From Ruegeria sp. PrR005 (GTDB lineage: Bacteria > Pseudomonadota > Alphaproteobacteria > Rhodobacterales > Rhodobacteraceae), in contig NZ_JAAGOX010000053.1 in the NCBI RefSeq assembly GCF_010500245.1, forward strand, positions 62,001 to 126,000: a DNA stretch of 64,000 nt, written 5' to 3'. The position numbers were made by a program, and so were the translations under genes. The notes below the pieces were generated by a model that was not told the origin of the DNA, did not search any database, and worked only from the letters and a program-made list of their open reading frames with translations. How positions within the stretch are numbered: position 1 is the stretch's first letter; each line of letters begins with the position of its first letter. Shown one piece after another: positions 8,658-17,103 of the stretch.

Positions 8658-8693
8658 CTACCATGGGAATCCATTCGGAGCCTCCCATGGTAG
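8658..8693. promoter_or_regulatory. Perfect 11-bp inverted repeat covering the aminotransferase start
   Basis: CTACCATGGGA (8658-8668) and TCCCATGGTAG (8683-8693) are perfectly complementary, with 14 bases between. Each arm contains an in-frame ATG (8663 and 8687). The second has GGAG six to nine bases upstream and is the likelier start. The element could be an operator for a dimeric repressor or an mRNA hairpin that hides the start codon. No other copy was noticed in the window. Confidence 0.55.
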
Positions 8694-10060
8694 AGTCCCA
8701 AGGCACCATCGCCGGTATCCGCCGCGACCGTATCGACACCCTAGCCCGCCACGAGGCGGAACGCTTTGTATCCACCCGGCCCAGGACGCGCGCCGCATTG
8801 GACTCTGGCGCAGACCAATTTCTAGACGGTGTTCCGATGCACTGGATGCGTGACTGGCCGATGCCCTTTCCCATGCTGGTGGCCGAGGCGCGCGGCGCCC
8901 GGCTGACCGATATCGACGGGCATGTGATCGACGATTTCTGTCTGGGCGATACCGGGTCGATGTTCGGCCATTCACCTGAGCCGGTGGCGCGGGCGATCCG
9001 GACCCAGGCCGATATCGGCCTGACCTACATGCTGCCGACCGAGGCCGCGCTGGAATCGGCGGCACTTTTGACCGAGAAATTCGGCGATTTCCACTGGCAG
9101 ATCGCCACCACCGCCTCGGACGCCAACCGGTTCGCCTTGCGCGTCGCCCGCGCTGTCACGGGCAAAGCCAAGGTGATCGTGTTCCACGGTTGCTATCACG
9201 GCGCGGTAGACGACTCGATGGTGGAACTGCATCAGGGCCAGACCCGGACCCGTCCCGGCCTTGCCGGGCAGGTGACCGACCTTGCCACGCTGGCAGTCGC
9301 CTGCGAGTTCAACGACCTGAACTCGGTCGAATCGGCGCTCCGTGCCGGGGATGTGGCCGCCATCCTGACTGAACCGGTCATGACCAACAGCTGCATGGTG
9401 TTGCCCGATCCCGGGTTTCTGGACGGCCTGCGCGCACTGGCCACGCAGTATGGCGCGCTCTTGATGATCGACGAGACGCATACGCTGTCCTCCGGCCTGG
9501 GCGGATACACCGGCGTATACGGGCTCGACCCCGATGTTTTTGTCGTCGGCAAATGCGTTGCAGGCGGCATGCCCACCGCGGTCTGGGGTCTGCGTCCCGC
9601 CGTGGCCGAGGCCTGGCGCATATATGACGATGCCCGTCCGGGCGGGCATTCCGGGATGGGCACCACCCTGTCCGCCAACCCGATGCAATTTGCCTGTCTG
9701 GCCGCCAATCTGTCGCAGGTCATGACCGCCGGCAACTATGCCCATATGGAGGCCGGGGCCGAGCGACTGGCCACCGGGCTGTCCGAGAGTATCGCCCGCC
9801 ATGGCGTACCATGGCACGTGGTGCGTGTCGGAGCGCGGGTGGAGTTTATCTGCGCCCCGGGCCCGCTGAAGAACGGAACCGAGGCTGCAACCGCCCATAA
9901 GCCGGAGCTAGAGGCCGCCATCCATACCGCTCTTTTGAACCGGGGCTGTCTGATCGCGCCCTTCCACAACATGATGCTGGTCAGCCCGGTCACCTCGAAC
10001 GAACAGATCGACCGGCTGATTGCAACCTTCGACGATATCCTGACCGAACTTCTGACCTGA
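8687..10060 (+). CDS. Class III PLP aminotransferase / aminomutase-like protein
   Basis: Fold-type I PLP enzyme related to glutamate-1-semialdehyde aminomutases and aspartate aminotransferase family members. Visible are the cofactor loop HGCYHGAVD, MIDETHT (with the PLP-binding Asp) and VVGKCVAGGMP (with the Schiff-base Lys). Taking the ATG at 8687 gives 457 residues; 8663 would add eight. It stands immediately upstream of a glutamine-synthetase-like gene and the cyanophycin genes in one orientation, so it may deaminate or supply an amino donor in that pathway. Substrate unknown. It is not hemL-like in context, since ALA is made by the hemA product further along. Confidence 0.82.
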   Translation: MVESQGTIAGIRRDRIDTLARHEAERFVSTRPRTRAALDSGADQFLDGVPMHWMRDWPMPFPMLVAEARGARLTDIDGHVIDDFCLGDTGSMFGHSPEPVARAIRTQADIGLTYMLPTEAALESAALLTEKFGDFHWQIATTASDANRFALRVARAVTGKAKVIVFHGCYHGAVDDSMVELHQGQTRTRPGLAGQVTDLATLAVACEFNDLNSVESALRAGDVAAILTEPVMTNSCMVLPDPGFLDGLRALATQYGALLMIDETHTLSSGLGGYTGVYGLDPDVFVVGKCVAGGMPTAVWGLRPAVAEAWRIYDDARPGGHSGMGTTLSANPMQFACLAANLSQVMTAGNYAHMEAGAERLATGLSESIARHGVPWHVVRVGARVEFICAPGPLKNGTEAATAHKPELEAAIHTALLNRGCLIAPFHNMMLVSPVTSNEQIDRLIATFDDILTELLT

Positions 10061-10071
10061 GGACAAAGACC

Positions 10072-11460
10072 ATGACCACCCCCTGCCCCTCGGGCGCAAC
10101 CCTGGCCGAGGCCGAAGCCTTTCTCGAAGCCAACCCGGATATCGAGGCGGTCGATATCCTGCTGCACGATTCCAACGGCATCGGGCGCGGCAAGATCATC
10201 CGCCGGCACGAGTTGTCCTCGCTCTACAAATCCGGTCGCCACATGCCGATCTCGATCCTTGGCCTCGACATCTGCGGCGAGGATGTGCACGAAACCGGTC
10301 TGATCTGGGATCAGGGCGACGGCGACCTTCGCGCCTGGCCCATTCCCGGGACGCTCAAGCGGCTGCACAACACAACGCCGCCCCGGGCCGAGGTGTTCAT
10401 GTCGCTCTACGAACTGGACGGCACACCGATGACCAGCGATCCGCGCCATGCCTTGGCGCGCCAAGTCGAATTGCTGGCCGCCGAAGGGTTGAAGCCCGCA
10501 GGCGCGTTCGAGCTGGAGTTCTTTCTGCTCGCCAACGAACTGGATGCCGACGACAAGGCGCAGCCCGCGCGCGACGTGCTGGATGGCCGCCGCTCGCACA
10601 AGACCGAAGTCTATTCGGTCGATCATTTGCATGGCATGCTGCCGCTGTTCTCGGACGTTTACCAAGCCGCCGAGCTGGCCGGGATCAAGGCCGAGACCCT
10701 GATTTCAGAATACGCGCCGGGCCAGTACGAGTTGACCCTGCACTATCGCGAGGACGTGTTGCAGGCCGCCGATGACCTGATCCGGCTCAAGCGGATCGTG
10801 CGCGCCCAGGCCCGCGCCCATGGGGTGACCGCCTGTTTCATGGCCAAACCGGTCGAGGAATATGCCGGGTCCGGCATGCATTTCCACGTCTCACTCCAGG
10901 ATCGGGACGGCCGCAACGTGTTTGCTGAACAGGAAGAAGGCGAATGGACCGAAACCGTCCTGCACGCCATCGGCGGGATGCGGGACACGATGGCGGAATC
11001 GATGCTGGTCTTTGCTCCGCATGCCAATTCCTGGCGGCGCTTTGCCAACCAGAGCTATGCGCCGATCTCGACCAACTGGGGTGTCAACAACCGCTCGGTG
11101 GCACTGCGTATTCCAGCGGGTGACATTCGCGCGCGCCGGATCGAACACCGCCCCTCGGGCGTGGATGCCAATCCCTATCTGGTCGCAACAACCGTGCTTG
11201 CCGCCATCCGGCACGGATTGAAGAACCGGATTGATCCCGGCCCCGAGACCATCGGCAACGGCTATGACGAAGGTCAGGACGATCACATGCCGCGCGACTG
11301 GCGCACCGCGATTGATGCTGCGCGCGACTCGGCCTTTCTCAAGGACGCGCTTGGCGAGGACATGCACCGGACCTTTGTGGCCGTCAAAGCCGCCGAATAC
11401 GCTCGGGTCTGTCGCACGGTGTCAAAGCTCGACTTCGATCTCTATCTGCACACGGTCTGA
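10072..11460 (+). CDS. Glutamine synthetase family protein (PuuA/GlnA3-like)
   Basis: A 462-residue glutamine-synthetase-fold ligase. The N-terminal beta-grasp domain is followed by the catalytic domain, with GAFELEFFL (Glu metal ligands), GSGMHFHVSL and the nucleotide/Arg region NNRSVALRIP. Sequence style and length resemble gamma-glutamylpolyamine synthetases (PuuA) and GlnA3/GlnA4 proteins more than housekeeping GlnA, and I see no adenylylation-tyrosine region. It may gamma-glutamylate an amine such as agmatine or putrescine derived from arginine released from cyanophycin; that is inference from the neighbours. It begins 11 bp after the aminotransferase, with GAGGA in front. Confidence 0.85.
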   Translation: MTTPCPSGATLAEAEAFLEANPDIEAVDILLHDSNGIGRGKIIRRHELSSLYKSGRHMPISILGLDICGEDVHETGLIWDQGDGDLRAWPIPGTLKRLHNTTPPRAEVFMSLYELDGTPMTSDPRHALARQVELLAAEGLKPAGAFELEFFLLANELDADDKAQPARDVLDGRRSHKTEVYSVDHLHGMLPLFSDVYQAAELAGIKAETLISEYAPGQYELTLHYREDVLQAADDLIRLKRIVRAQARAHGVTACFMAKPVEEYAGSGMHFHVSLQDRDGRNVFAEQEEGEWTETVLHAIGGMRDTMAESMLVFAPHANSWRRFANQSYAPISTNWGVNNRSVALRIPAGDIRARRIEHRPSGVDANPYLVATTVLAAIRHGLKNRIDPGPETIGNGYDEGQDDHMPRDWRTAIDAARDSAFLKDALGEDMHRTFVAVKAAEYARVCRTVSKLDFDLYLHTV

Positions 11461-11530: not shown

Positions 11531-11656
11531 ATGTCACAGGCGGCCGGAGTGTCCGGAACCGGCATGCGGTTCCGGGACAAGATCGGCGGCGCACCCTGGC
11601 ACAAACACCTGCGCCCGCAACGGAAAGTAGGATCAGATGTGCCCCGCACCTGTTGA
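11531..11656 (+). CDS. Possible 41-residue basic ORF before cyanophycinase
   Basis: In the 176-bp gap between the glutamine synthetase and cyanophycinase, an ATG at 11531 is preceded by GGGGGGAA at good spacing. It opens a 41-codon frame that runs 20 bp into cphB in another frame. The peptide begins MSQAAGVSGTGMRFR and is rich in Gly, Arg, Lys and His in its middle. Nothing is recognised. It may be a real small protein, a translational leader for cphB, or noise. Confidence 0.3.
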   Translation: MSQAAGVSGTGMRFRDKIGGAPWHKHLRPQRKVGSDVPRTC

Positions 11657-12536
11657 CGAAAGCACCCCGCGCGGGTTCATCATCCCGATCGGCGGCGGCG
11701 AAGACCGCGTCAAGGAAATGCAGATTCACCGCCGGTTTGTCGAACTGTCGGGCGGCGCGGATGCCGATATCGTGGTGATCCCGACCGCCTCGATGCTGGA
11801 AGAGACCGGACCGGATTACAATCGCATCTTCTCGGAACTCGGTGCGGGCCGGGTCGAGTTTCTGCCGATCTCGCGCCGGGCTGATTGCGACAACCCTGAT
11901 TTCGCAGGAATGCTGGACCGGGCCACCGGCATATTCATGACCGGCGGCAACCAGCTGCGCCTGTCGGCGATTCTGGGCGGCACGCTGGTCGCGCAGAAGA
12001 TTCGCCGCCGCAACGCCGCCGGTGTGCCCGTTGCCGGAACGTCCGCCGGAGCCTCGATCATGTCCGAGCACATGGTAGCGGGAGGCAGTTCCAACGCTGG
12101 CCCTGCCGAGGGAAACATTACCCTGGCACCCGGAATGGGTCTGACAAACGCGGTGATCATCGACCAACATTTCACCCAGCGCAATCGCCTGGGCCGGTTG
12201 CTAACCGCCTCATCTTTCAACCCGTTTCTGATCGGGCTGGGGATTGACGAGGATACCGCCGCCTTCATCGGGCCCGACAACGTGTTCGAGGTGGTGGGCA
12301 GCGGAACGGTCACCGTCGTAGACGCCAGCCACCTGACCCATTCCTCGATGTGGGAGGCGCGGCGGGGCCAGGCGCTCAGCTTGCTCGGTCTGCGGCTTGA
12401 CGTTCTGGGTGAAGGGTGCCGTTATGATCTGACTGCGCGGCAGGCGTTTCCACCTGACGAGCATCTGGCGTTCTGCACCCTGCCCGACCGATCCGGCAAC
12501 AGCGGCGCCACGGGGGGGAAGACTCAACTACAATAA
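11637..12536 (+). CDS. cphB: Cyanophycinase (S51 serine peptidase)
   Basis: Cyanophycinase, an exopeptidase that cuts the multi-L-arginyl-poly-L-aspartate polymer cyanophycin into beta-Asp-Arg dipeptides. The nucleophile elbow GTSAGAS (about 135-141) carries the catalytic Ser; MTGGNQLRL (about 100-108) and DQHFTQRNRLGR (about 178-189) are family features. 299 residues, typical. It has AGGA 5 bases before the ATG and is followed after 11 bp by cphA, so degradation and synthesis of the polymer are encoded together. No gene for an isoaspartyl dipeptidase was seen in the window. Confidence 0.92.
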   Translation: MCPAPVDESTPRGFIIPIGGGEDRVKEMQIHRRFVELSGGADADIVVIPTASMLEETGPDYNRIFSELGAGRVEFLPISRRADCDNPDFAGMLDRATGIFMTGGNQLRLSAILGGTLVAQKIRRRNAAGVPVAGTSAGASIMSEHMVAGGSSNAGPAEGNITLAPGMGLTNAVIIDQHFTQRNRLGRLLTASSFNPFLIGLGIDEDTAAFIGPDNVFEVVGSGTVTVVDASHLTHSSMWEARRGQALSLLGLRLDVLGEGCRYDLTARQAFPPDEHLAFCTLPDRSGNSGATGGKTQLQ

Positions 12537-12547
12537 CGGGGAGCCAT

Positions 12548-15349
12548 ATGAAAGTAGTCTCGACCAATGTCTTTGTCGGCCCGAACGTCTGGGCCAGTTT
12601 TCCGGTCATCCGACATGTCATCGACTTGGGACTGCTCGAAGAATGGCCCTCGGCCCGGATCGGGCCCGAGTTTATCGACGGGTTGATCGCGGCACTGCCG
12701 GGACTGGCCGAACACGGCTGCTCATACCGCGAACCCGGCGGCTTCATCCGCCGCCTGCGCGAGGACGAAGGCACCTGGCTGGGACACGTTCTGGAACATT
12801 GCGCCATCGAGGTGCAGAACGTCGCCGGTTCTGACGTGACTTTTGGACGGACCCGGGGCACCGGAGAGCCCGGCCAGTACAACATGGTCTACGAATACCG
12901 TCAGCGCGATGTCGGGTTAGAGGCCGGCAAGCTGGCGATCCGCCTGCTGATGCATCTGCTGCCGCAGGCGCTCAAGGACCAGATCGACTATGAGTTCGAC
13001 CCCGAGTTCGACTGGAATGACGAATTGCGCAGCTTTGTCCTGCGGGCGCAGCGCAAGGAATTCGGCCCATCGACCGGTTCGCTGGTCAAGGCCGCGCAAG
13101 CGCGCGACATCCCCTGGATCCGTCTGAACGAAGGCTCTCTGGTGCAATTCGGACATGGCAAGTTCCAAAAACGCATCCAGGCCACCATCACCTCGGAAAC
13201 CAAACATATCGCGGTCGAGATCTCCTGCGACAAGGAAGACACCCACAACCTGCTGAACGACCTCGGCCTGCCGGTGCCGCAACAGCGCATGGTCTATTCC
13301 GAACGCGAGGCGGTGCGTGCGGCCGAGCGCATCGGCTATCCGGTGGTGATCAAGCCGCTGAACGCCAATCACGGGCGCGGCGTGTCGATCAACCTCAATA
13401 CACCCGCAGAAGTCGAAGCAGGCTTTGCCGAGGCAAAGGAACATTCCAAGAGTCGTGCCATCCTGGTCGAAAGCTTTATCACCGGGTTCGATCACCGCAT
13501 GCTGGTGGTCAACAACAAGCTGGTCGCGGTGGCCAAACGTGTGCCGGGCCATGTGGTCGGCGACGGGACCCATACCATCGCCGAATTGGTCGATATCGTG
13601 AACCAGGATCCGCGCCGGGGCATTGGGCACGAAAAGGTTCTGACCAAGCTGGAACTCGATACCCAGGCCAATCGCCTGATGGCCGCCGCCGGTGTGGCCG
13701 AAGAGACCGTATTGCCCGCAGGCGAGATATTCTATCTGCGCTCGACCGCGAACCTGTCCACCGGTGGCACCGCCATCGACCTGACCGACGTGGTGCATCC
13801 CGACAACCGCGACATGGCCGAACGCGCCATCATGGCGGTCGGCCTCGATGTCGGCGGGGTCGATTTCCTGATCGACGACATCACCAAATCCTACAAGGAT
13901 ATCGGCGGCGCCATTGTCGAGGTCAACGCAGCCCCCGGTTTCCGCATGCATGTCGCCCCGTCCGAAGGTCAACCCCGCGATGTGGCGGGCCGGGTGATCG
14001 ACATGCTGTTCCCGGCCGGGGAACAGACCCGCATCCCGATCGCCGCAATCACCGGCACCAACGGCAAGACAACGACATCGCGCATGCTGGCACATATCAT
14101 GAAGACCAGCGGCAAGATCGTCGGCATGACCTCGACCGACGGCGTCTATGTCGATGGCAAGCTCAGCGTCAAGGGCGACATGACCGGGCCGAAATCAGCG
14201 CAGATCGTGCTGCGTGACCCGGCGGTGGATTTCGCCGTGATGGAGACCGCACGCGGTGGGCTGGTGCGCTCGGGGCTGGGATATCAGCGCTCGAATGTTG
14301 CCGCCTGTCTCAACGTGTCGGCCGATCACCTTGGCCTTGGTGGCATCGACACGGTCGAGGAGCTGGCGGTCGTCAAACGGGTGGTGGTCGAAAGCGCAAC
14401 CGACACAGCCGTGCTGAATGCCGACGACATCAATTGCCTGAAAATGGCCGATTACGCCGATGCGGACACGATCTTTTACGTCACCACCAGCCCCAACCAC
14501 AGCTTGGTGAAGGAACATATCAAGGCGGGCGGCAAGGCGATCGTGCTGGAAAAGGGCATGAACGGCGACATGCTGACGATCTATGACAACGGGCTGCATA
14601 TCCCCGTTCTGTGGTCACACCTGATCCCGGCCACGCTGGAGGGCAAGGCGCTGTTCAACGTGCAGAACGCCATGTTCGCGACCGCCATGGCCTATAGCTT
14701 CGGGGTCGATCTGGACAATATCCGTCATGGGTTGCGTACCTTTGACACCAGCTATTTCCAGGCGCCGGGTCGGATGAACGTCTATGACGAGCATCCGTTC
14801 AAAGTGATTCTCGATTATGGTCACAACCCCGCCGCCCTTGGTGCCATGGCCGAGCTTGCGGACCGGATGGAGATCAAGGGTCGCAGGCTATGCGTGGTCT
14901 CGATGCCCGGAGACCGCCGCGATCAGGATGTCGTCGATGCCGCGGCCGCGCTGGCCGGTCATTTCGACCAGTTCATCTGCAAGGCAGATGATCGGCGCCG
15001 TGGGCGTGGTCATGACGAGATCCCCCAGATGCTGCGCCAGGCGCTGATGCAGAACGGAGTGGATGATGCGGCGATCACCGTCATCCCCGACGAGGTCGAG
15101 GCCGTCAATGCCGGTCTTGGCATGGCCGCGCCCGGTGATCTGCTGGTCATATTTGGCGACGACACCACCCGCTGCTGGAAACAGATCATCTATTTCAACG
15201 CGCCGGGCGATCAGCCAAAACCGAAGGGGGCCTCTGCCACCCGACAGCCTGTGGCCACATTCGAGGACATGTTCGACACTGACCAGACCCTGATCCGGGA
15301 CGAACGCGGCGTGCGCCTCGCCCGCGACATCAGCGAAAACGCCGACTGA
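12548..15349 (+). CDS. cphA: Cyanophycin synthetase
   Basis: Non-ribosomal polymerase that adds Asp to a polyaspartate backbone and Arg to each side chain, using two ATPs per unit. Three domains are visible: an N-domain (about 1-165) with GPNVW and later FGHGKFQKR; an ATP-grasp domain (about 210-485), with VVIKPLNANHGRGVSI and VDFLIDD..VEVNAAPG; and a Mur-ligase-like domain from about 495, with P-loop GTNGKTTTSR (about 502-511), YGHNPAAL and an SADHLG segment. At 933 residues it is slightly longer than usual (about 870-900). All catalytic segments look intact. GGGGAG precedes the ATG. Fifteen bp downstream comes a second, shorter CphA-like gene. Confidence 0.95.
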   Translation: MKVVSTNVFVGPNVWASFPVIRHVIDLGLLEEWPSARIGPEFIDGLIAALPGLAEHGCSYREPGGFIRRLREDEGTWLGHVLEHCAIEVQNVAGSDVTFGRTRGTGEPGQYNMVYEYRQRDVGLEAGKLAIRLLMHLLPQALKDQIDYEFDPEFDWNDELRSFVLRAQRKEFGPSTGSLVKAAQARDIPWIRLNEGSLVQFGHGKFQKRIQATITSETKHIAVEISCDKEDTHNLLNDLGLPVPQQRMVYSEREAVRAAERIGYPVVIKPLNANHGRGVSINLNTPAEVEAGFAEAKEHSKSRAILVESFITGFDHRMLVVNNKLVAVAKRVPGHVVGDGTHTIAELVDIVNQDPRRGIGHEKVLTKLELDTQANRLMAAAGVAEETVLPAGEIFYLRSTANLSTGGTAIDLTDVVHPDNRDMAERAIMAVGLDVGGVDFLIDDITKSYKDIGGAIVEVNAAPGFRMHVAPSEGQPRDVAGRVIDMLFPAGEQTRIPIAAITGTNGKTTTSRMLAHIMKTSGKIVGMTSTDGVYVDGKLSVKGDMTGPKSAQIVLRDPAVDFAVMETARGGLVRSGLGYQRSNVAACLNVSADHLGLGGIDTVEELAVVKRVVVESATDTAVLNADDINCLKMADYADADTIFYVTTSPNHSLVKEHIKAGGKAIVLEKGMNGDMLTIYDNGLHIPVLWSHLIPATLEGKALFNVQNAMFATAMAYSFGVDLDNIRHGLRTFDTSYFQAPGRMNVYDEHPFKVILDYGHNPAALGAMAELADRMEIKGRRLCVVSMPGDRRDQDVVDAAAALAGHFDQFICKADDRRRGRGHDEIPQMLRQALMQNGVDDAAITVIPDEVEAVNAGLGMAAPGDLLVIFGDDTTRCWKQIIYFNAPGDQPKPKGASATRQPVATFEDMFDTDQTLIRDERGVRLARDISENAD

Positions 15350-15363
15350 TCGGAGGGGCCGGC

Positions 15364-17103
15364 ATGGACCGGATCGAACAGCTTGAAACGGCACTGACGA
15401 TTGTCAGCGCGACCTCGGATCTCATCCGGGTCGAGGATGCCCGCCGCCTGACCGGCCCGGGATTGTTGTGGAACCGGCCCGGCGCGGTGATGGATGTGTT
15501 CTTTGACAGGCTGGAGCCCGAACGGGTGACCAGCCTATGGATGCATCACGCGCGCCGGGTGCTCGACGCCCTCGGCTGGCGGGAAGAGGCGGCAGTAACG
15601 CGGATCTTTACCGGTGGCGCCAACCTCGCCCTTTCGGCTCCGATGGACCAGCTCTATTCGGCGATCTTCGCCGCCCAAACCGCCTGGCATTTCTGCGCCG
15701 CCGAGCTGCTGGGCGAGCAACCGGACGATTTCGACCGGATGATTTTCGACTTGCGCGGAGTCATGGAGACCGAGGCGAACCCGGCTCTGATCGCGCTGAT
15801 CCGTGCGGCCGAAGAACATGGGATCGATATCCTGTGCGACGACGATGCCGTTTCCATCGGTCACGGCACCGGCAGCCGGACCTGGCCCGTCGACGCCCTG
15901 CCCGCCCCCGATCAGGTCGATTGGGCGGCGCTGCATGACATCCCCATGGCCTTTATCACCGGCACCAATGGCAAGACGACCACGACTCGCCTGCTCGAGG
16001 CGATTGCCCGCGCCTCGGGCAAGACAGCCGGTCTCACCTCGACCGAGTTTGTCCGGGTGGGCGACGAGATCCTCGACCGAGGCGACTACTCGGGCCCGGG
16101 TGGCGCCCGCATGCTGCTGCGCGATCCAAGGCTGGAGATTGCCTGCCTCGAAGTGGCGCGCGGCGGTATCCTGCGGCGCGGCCTGCCGACCCGTGCCGCC
16201 CGCGCCGCCGTGGTCACCAATGTCGCCAACGACCATCTGGGGCAATATGGCGTGAACACGGTGCCGGAACTGGCACAGGCGAAATTCGCCGTGCACCGGG
16301 CTCTGGCCCCCGGCGGGGTTCTGGCCCTGAACGCCGACGATGCCTTTGTACGGGCAGAGGCCGCCCGGACCGAGGCGAACATCTGGTGGTTCTCGCTCGA
16401 CCCCGAGCGCGCCGAGATCCGCGCCGCAAGAACGGCCGGACAACCTTGTACCTATTTGCGCGGAGAGACACTGGCGTTCTTCGACGGCACCGCAGAACAG
16501 GACATTCTGGCGGTGGCTGACGTCCCAATCACCATGAACGGGGCGGCCCGGTACAATGTGCTGAACGCGCTGGCGGCGCTTTGTCTTGCGCTGGCCATGG
16601 ACATTCCCGTTGCCGCCATTCGGCAGGGTCTGCGCAACTTCCGCCCCGATCCCATCGACAACCCCGGCCGCTGTAACGAGTTCGCTCATAACGGCGCCCG
16701 GGTGTTTGTGGATTTCGCCCATAATCCGCATTCCATCGCCGCCGTTTGCGAGGCCTTGGCCAACCTGCCCGCCAAACGCCGCTTCATCATGCTGAGCCAC
16801 GCAGGCGACCGGTCGGATCAGGATATCCGCGATGTGACCACCACCGCGCTTGGTTTCCAGCCCGACGTCGTTGTCGCCGCTGAGCTGCCGGACTATCTGC
16901 GCGGTCGTCAACTGGGAGAGATACCGGCGCTGATCGAACAGGCCGCCACCGGTGCGGGCTTGGCAAAGACCCAAATCCAACGCGCGGATTCGCCGACCGA
17001 CGCCGCCCGGATGATCCTGGATCAAGTCAATCCCGGCGACCTGGCTTTATTGCTGGTCCTGTCGGAACGCGACCGGGTGTTTGCCCTACTCGAGGACCGT
17101 TAG
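15364..17103 (+). CDS. CphA-like Mur ligase lacking the ATP-grasp domain
   Basis: A 579-residue protein related to the preceding cyanophycin synthetase but missing its central ATP-grasp domain. Residues about 28-185 resemble the CphA N-domain (GPGLLWNRPG corresponds to the GPNVW region; VSIGHGTGSR to the FGHGKFQKR region). They run directly into a complete Mur ligase module: P-loop GTNGKTTTTR (200-209), ANDHLG (about 290) and DFAHNPHS (about 452-459). It can therefore activate one carboxylate and form one amide or isopeptide bond, but should not extend an aspartate backbone. Its start is 15 bp after cphA with AGGGG in front. Its role, whether a side-chain amino acid other than Arg, modification, or a helper subunit, is unknown. 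Confidence 0.85.
   Translation: MDRIEQLETALTIVSATSDLIRVEDARRLTGPGLLWNRPGAVMDVFFDRLEPERVTSLWMHHARRVLDALGWREEAAVTRIFTGGANLALSAPMDQLYSAIFAAQTAWHFCAAELLGEQPDDFDRMIFDLRGVMETEANPALIALIRAAEEHGIDILCDDDAVSIGHGTGSRTWPVDALPAPDQVDWAALHDIPMAFITGTNGKTTTTRLLEAIARASGKTAGLTSTEFVRVGDEILDRGDYSGPGGARMLLRDPRLEIACLEVARGGILRRGLPTRAARAAVVTNVANDHLGQYGVNTVPELAQAKFAVHRALAPGGVLALNADDAFVRAEAARTEANIWWFSLDPERAEIRAARTAGQPCTYLRGETLAFFDGTAEQDILAVADVPITMNGAARYNVLNALAALCLALAMDIPVAAIRQGLRNFRPDPIDNPGRCNEFAHNGARVFVDFAHNPHSIAAVCEALANLPAKRRFIMLSHAGDRSDQDIRDVTTTALGFQPDVVVAAELPDYLRGRQLGEIPALIEQAATGAGLAKTQIQRADSPTDAARMILDQVNPGDLALLLVLSERDRVFALLEDR

Follow-up and report, generated by a model that had tools for sequence, protein, structure and literature searches.

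Downstream of the cyanophycin synthetase gene cphA, the window (the whole stretch of 64,000 nucleotides that was analysed) encodes a 579-aa protein which combines a CphA-type N domain with a Mur-like M domain and is devoid of the ATP-grasp core (15364..17103, + strand). We use "MURL" as a working name for this protein and its family. MURL has the architecture of a shortened CphA, carries the conserved catalytic residues of the CphA Mur domain, forms a separate family and is inherited together with CphA. From these features we infer its activity, acceptor and donor: with somewhat less than even confidence, we posit that it is an ATP-dependent Mur-type amino-acid ligase that uses the same type of acceptor as the CphA M domain and probably a donor other than arginine. 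This suggests that cyanophycin-type polymer is made or modified in a so far undescribed way in MURL-bearing bacteria. In the accessible text of the open-access literature we found no description of a MURL-like gene, i.e., of an N plus Mur protein beside CphA, and databases list it under the generic name "Mur ligase family protein". Our claim that MURL is undescribed rests on these two sources.

Gene arrangement and domain architecture

Three genes, cphB, cphA and MURL, are arranged head to tail on the + strand of the window with gaps of 11 and 14 nt. They encode a cyanophycinase (CphB; 11637..12536, TIGR02069 252 bits, cut-off 126.6), the partner CphA, a cyanophycin synthetase of 933 aa with N, ATP-grasp and Mur domains (12548..15349, TIGR02068 1145 bits, cut-off 850), and MURL, which would complete a cphB-cphA-MURL cassette as its third and as yet unnamed component. 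A Shine-Dalgarno-like GGAGG (15352..15356, + strand) lies within the 14-nt gap, after the CphA stop codon and ahead of the MURL start codon. A promoter and terminator scan at the window cassette gave matches at chance level. The closest of the five named relatives that were found belongs to Ruegeria sp. XHP0148 (95% identical). Upstream of cphB (window 8663-11460) are genes for a class-III aminotransferase (PRK07046 family, 687 bits) and a glutamine-synthetase-like protein, the latter scoring under the cut-off of every NCBIfam model. A functional tie to these two genes is unsupported; among the loci mapped they adjoin the cassette only in the window and in L008.

The preliminary description had read the gene as a CphA-like ligase that lacks ATP-grasp and lies beside a complete CphA, and this is borne out by Pfam and NCBIfam searches, by alignment, and by AlphaFold2 and Foldseek. 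The M domain of MURL (residues 193-564) is 35% identical to residues 496-869 of the adjacent CphA (BLAST, E 4e-61), and residues 191-571 match positions 477-853 of TIGR02068 with 348 bits, short of the curated cut-off (850). In the PDB, the five sequences that match MURL best all belong to CphA1. ATP-grasp families were absent from the Pfam matches of MURL (E up to 1) and from the best 25 of its 30 NCBIfam matches listed; the neighbouring CphA matched several of them in the same searches. Since the P-loop GTNGK begins at residue 200 in MURL and at residue 503 in CphA, the stretch from the GHG motif to the P-loop is ~266 residues shorter in MURL (its Mur P-loop ITGTNGKTT, residues 198-206, is at 15955..15981, + strand). 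The preliminary description had put the missing stretch at ~290 residues.

The N-terminal region of MURL, consisting of the N domain and a G-domain stub without HxxEH (residues 1-192, 15364..15939, + strand), was without a match in Pfam, and BLAST gave nothing significant for it. In a profile comparison, its residues 103-172 aligned with CphA 124-195 (probability 90%, E 1.6e-6). With larger alignments, residues 118-171 (15715..15876, + strand), which align with CphA where its N domain ends and its G domain starts, reached a profile score of 41.1; the highest score among 30 column-shuffled controls was 22.1, and a single reversed control gave 15.5. Because the G domain of TeCphA1 is reported to start at residue 162 (PMC9427784), the profile-aligned segment takes in the first G residues; the remainder of the G domain is missing in MURL. 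For residues 1-102, it is the predicted fold that supports an assignment to the CphA N domain.

An AlphaFold2 model of MURL, built from 15 MURLs, had a pLDDT of 90.9, and its first Foldseek matches were CphA1 chains with ~875 aligned columns including gaps (TMq 0.79, 0.81, 0.81 and 0.84 for the best four). We read the model as predicting that N and M pack against one another in the manner of CphA1. When residues 1-192 were modelled separately (pLDDT 91.8), 12/12 matches at E <= 0.001 were CphA1 or CphA2 chains, with modest TMq values of 0.45-0.59, and the next match followed at E 0.009. The likeness to the CphA N domain, initially noticed from short motifs, is consequently seen in the profile alignment (~103-172) as well as in the fold of residues 1-192. 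Two observations had been named that would speak against the first description, a hidden ATP-grasp fold or a lack of similarity to the N domain, and neither was found; the former is ruled out by the Pfam and NCBIfam searches, the AlphaFold2 model and Foldseek.

Descent and distribution of MURL

In a tree of Mur domains (15 MURL, 22 CphA, 10 MurE), all MURLs formed one branch (100/100) that grouped with CphA and not with MurE (100/100). Two placements are left by this tree, as sister to CphA or within CphA, and long branches were seen for the MURLs L086 and L089. The separate branch indicates an old paralogue rather than a recent deletion, and a recent copy of the neighbouring CphA is ruled out by the low identity of the two proteins (35%) and the deep clade. 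MURL is a family of its own and not a damaged copy.

Genome counts are given here as k of n searched, and the samples overlap. Within the family of the window genome, MURL was present in 6/198 genomes, with G177 (E 2.4e-4, 146-aa frame) excluded from the count, and full CphA in 8/198, among them every one of the 6 MURL genomes. A search for the gene pair in this family had been suggested in the preliminary description; all six MURL genomes there carry the full CphA, and the pair reaches well beyond the family. MURL was found in 4/385 genomes of the window's class and in 5/398 of the phylum sample, where CphA over the cut-off occurred in 29/398, including all 5. It was likewise found in three distant orders, which belong to the window's phylum and to a different class, namely those of G816 (5/138 genomes), G932 (51/141) and G276 (1/1).

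The pairing is best seen in the order of G932, where CphA over the cut-off was also present in 51/141 genomes and both genes in 49, i.e., 49/51 full-CphA genomes have MURL and 49/51 MURL genomes have full CphA (Fisher p 6e-33, with genomes treated as independent, which they are not). Exceptions are G1158, where the MURL-side match is a Mur piece on a separate contig, G1054, where the CphA match stops at position 684, G1142, where the CphA match beside MURL is partial and has a stop codon, and G1043, which has MURL and no CphA match. The order cphB-cphA-MURL on one strand was retained in all MURL loci that were mapped over 11-18 kb (14/14), both within the window's class and outside it (L095 and L096 were mapped additionally as loci without MURL). 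Among shorter loci from the orders of G816 and G932, CphA was directly upstream of MURL in 34/35 (two of them repeat genomes). The matched stretches were on the same contig and 143-437 nt apart in 47/49 two-gene genomes of the order of G932, and on different contigs in G1051 and G1056. Four plasmid records carry MURL (96-100% coverage) with cphA adjoining by coordinates, two from Ruegeria, one from Shinella zoogloeoides and one from an unverified Roseateles; three of the four are annotated with cyanophycinase, cphA and "Mur ligase family protein".

Active site and proposed function

In order to compare the active sites, 47 MURLs and 52 CphAs were aligned over their Mur domains. The alignment draws on 30 loci from the 51 MURL genomes of the order of G932 and leaves out L131 (partial) as well as L097 and L112 (repeat genomes). 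Equivalents of TeCphA1 N497, K499, E558, R731 and H748, which are described as contacting ATP or Mg (PMC9427784), and of SuCphA1 D585 and H586, whose mutation served to inactivate the M domain (PMC9262961), were identical in 47/47 MURLs and 52/52 CphAs. Judged from these residues, the catalytic half of MURL looks intact. The motifs GD.[ST]GP and ARGG..R are common to MURLs and CphAs, and we take them to correspond to the acceptor-side motifs of MurE. Two substitutions count against our reading of MURL as a ligase with a CphA-like acceptor: the Thr following the P-loop Lys is replaced by Ser in 31/47 MURLs, and the Pro of SGP by Thr in 6/47.

The putative donor site of MURL was mapped by alignment with MurE and by MurE motifs, among them the DNPR loop, which binds the incoming amino acid. 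Aligned with DNPR is the loop AAELPDYLRGR in the window protein (residues 505-515, 16876..16908, + strand). This loop is 2-3 residues longer than that of CphA in 47/47 MURLs, with ELPGYERGR-like sequences in MURL and, for example, KADDNRRGR, YQDACQRGR or ETDARGR in CphA. At the end of the last strand, 51/52 CphAs have Asp, whereas the 47 MURLs have Leu (43) or His (4); three residues further on, Arg is found in 46/47 MURLs and Thr or Glu in 35/52 CphAs. Taken together, the shared motifs and the altered loop and strand end indicate that the acceptor side was kept while the donor side was rebuilt, with loss of acidic residues.

The HxxEH motif, whose site is reported to cut primers in many CphA1s (PMC9262961), is absent from the N domain of 47/47 MURLs, and it is kept in 30/30 partner CphAs (L133-L162). 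In the N domain of the window CphA, the motif takes the form Cx21HxxEH and not the published Cx19HxxEH; this two-residue insertion is shared by 29/30 of the same partner CphAs.

A kept acceptor side and a rebuilt donor side point to a CphA-like acceptor and a donor other than arginine. According to this proposal, MURL would bind an Asp that is terminal and has its beta-carboxylate free, most likely at the end of a cyanophycin chain during growth. It would activate the carboxylate with ATP and couple to it an amino acid, probably one other than arginine and perhaps not basic at all. Having no ATP-grasp site and no HxxEH, it would be unable to extend the backbone or to cut primers, and would depend on CphA. 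The preliminary description had suggested that the enzyme acts together with CphA, which is supported by fold, active-site residues and co-occurrence, and that it attaches another amine. The donor site rebuilt in 47/47 MURLs would fit the latter suggestion. In engineered hosts, CphAs are described to incorporate lysine, ornithine or citrulline (PMC8050183), so that variety in the side chain is chemically possible. Against our proposal, genome G1043 has MURL and no CphA match, and the RGR that follows the donor loop is conserved in both families and could mean that the donor is the same.

If the donor were the same, MURL would be a helper that adds arginine as the CphA M domain does, either completing bare Asp residues or speeding up the second step. 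The catalytic residues, the acceptor motifs and the RGR held in common with CphA would all agree with such a role, as would the co-occurrence of the two genes. However, the donor loop and the strand-end Asp differ in every MURL, and the partner CphA already contains what looks like a complete M domain. We therefore regard an arginine helper as rather unlikely.

The C-terminal tail of the partner CphA

The partner CphAs have a poorly conserved linker after the M domain, followed by a conserved C-terminus of the form DERGVRLAR...E-[ED]-[ASGN]-D. In the window CphA this tail is LIRDERGVRLARDISENAD (15290..15346, + strand), with Asp as the last residue. Among 58 distinct C-termini from the MURL set (74 ORFs), Asp is last in 57 and Glu is at position -4 in 57. 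The sole exception to the Asp tail is L140, the CphA of G1091, whose ORF extends 123 aa beyond the usual WKQI point; it was kept in the tail count and left out of the CphA-clade tree. The G1091 assembly has a listed contamination of 7. Also included in the 58 is L149 (G1158), whose MURL is a Mur piece on another contig. In the family and phylum samples, 9/9 CphAs with MURL and 0/27 without it end in E..D; the 27 include one that is truncated where its contig stops.

Both counts speak for an alternative in which MURL acts on the Asp-ending tail of CphA, either aminoacylating it, which would make CphA its own covalent primer, or merely docking there. Yet the tail-bearing CphAs all fall in one clade, and the association of tail and MURL may for this reason be a single event. 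Furthermore, L027, which groups with this clade at an ambiguous position and has no MURL, lacks HxxEH and has a worn tail with Glu as its last residue, and TmCphA1 retains an ERGV remnant (visible in 7lgn). No match to the tail was found in solved proteobacterial CphAs, whose tails are legible only in part. The tail may also have another use, and we consider this alternative improbable. The tail might dock MURL, be its substrate, act as a primer built into CphA or serve an unrelated purpose.

Combining both lines, we can picture a two-enzyme system of MURL and the Asp tail of CphA, in which a non-arginine amino acid would be placed onto the Asp of the polymer or of the tail, and the polymer would be altered or self-primed. 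We regard this picture as doubtful. Were it true, the stored polymer would be chemically different or begun covalently on its own synthetase. In the published description, a single self-sufficient enzyme makes cyanophycin (PMC9262961), and a second ligase that is almost always paired with one CphA clade would revise the view of which polymer is stored and how its synthesis starts. MURL would moreover provide a separate side-chain ligase for the making of modified polyaspartates, and the conserved CphA tail is a precise lead.

Further alternatives

Free-standing Mur-type ligases act on small substrates. By analogy, MURL, being without the polymerising half, might use free Asp to form a beta-aspartyl dipeptide, or make a separate small molecule, instead of modifying the polymer. 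It nevertheless keeps the N domain, which in CphA1 is described to hold the polymer (PMC9262961), and it accompanies CphA, so that we give this explanation only a small chance of being correct. A role as a subunit without catalytic activity, binding to CphA or to the granule, would be in line with the constant pairing, but seven catalytic positions identical in 47/47 MURLs are unexpected for a dead enzyme and make such a role very improbable. A broken CphA copy, a pseudogene or an assembly artefact, in favour of which we found nothing, is refuted by 47 members, a fully supported clade of their own and ~35% identity to the adjacent CphA, and we give it practically no weight.

Comparison with known systems

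MURL shares the Mur middle and C-terminal domains and their fold with MurE and other Mur ligases (MurE TMq ~0.4-0.5). It differs from MurE in its CphA-type N domain, in the grouping of its Mur domain with CphA, and in the replacement of the DNPR motif by an ELPGYxRGR-like loop. With CphA1 it has in common the N fold, the M fold, the catalytic residues and the packing of N against M; what sets it apart is the absence of the ATP-grasp core and of HxxEH (0/47), the longer donor loop and the loss of the strand-end Asp.

Other CphA-related proteins of unusual composition were noted alongside. A plasmid of Legionella adelaidensis (NZ_LR134428.1, L166:3530-5398) encodes a 622-aa "Mur ligase family protein" (P0006) beside a cyanophycinase and an isoaspartyl peptidase. 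Like MURL, it consists of a CphA N domain and a CphA-type Mur domain without ATP-grasp; unlike MURL, it has a canonical N domain with HxxEH (PF18921 155 bits) and a CphA-like donor loop, and it apparently represents a second, independent loss of ATP-grasp, as judged from its sequence. Frames of ~750-850 aa in G1083, G1088, G1109, G1157, G1162 and others match TIGR02068 from ~390-455 to 850; in them another kind of N-terminal half is joined to a CphA-like Mur domain. Sludge bacteria have been reported to carry two cphA copies in series (PMC10687191). Within our phylum sample, 16/29 CphA genomes (e.g., G755, G839, G917) contain two CphA matches, the second lying next to the full match or in its vicinity; these second matches are below the cut-off and end at model position 625-721 of 862. 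Being without the Mur end, they are the reverse of MURL.

CphA2 and MURL have related N folds, and each has lost one of the two activities (PMC10206079, as far as its available text goes). CphA2 keeps ATP-grasp and is described to repolymerise dipeptides with a single active site (PMC10206079), whereas MURL is without ATP-grasp and keeps the Mur catalytic residues in 47/47 members. The contrast with CphA2 that was drawn when the gene was first noticed, i.e., ATP-grasp lost and Mur kept, is thereby supported by both the fold and the active-site residues.
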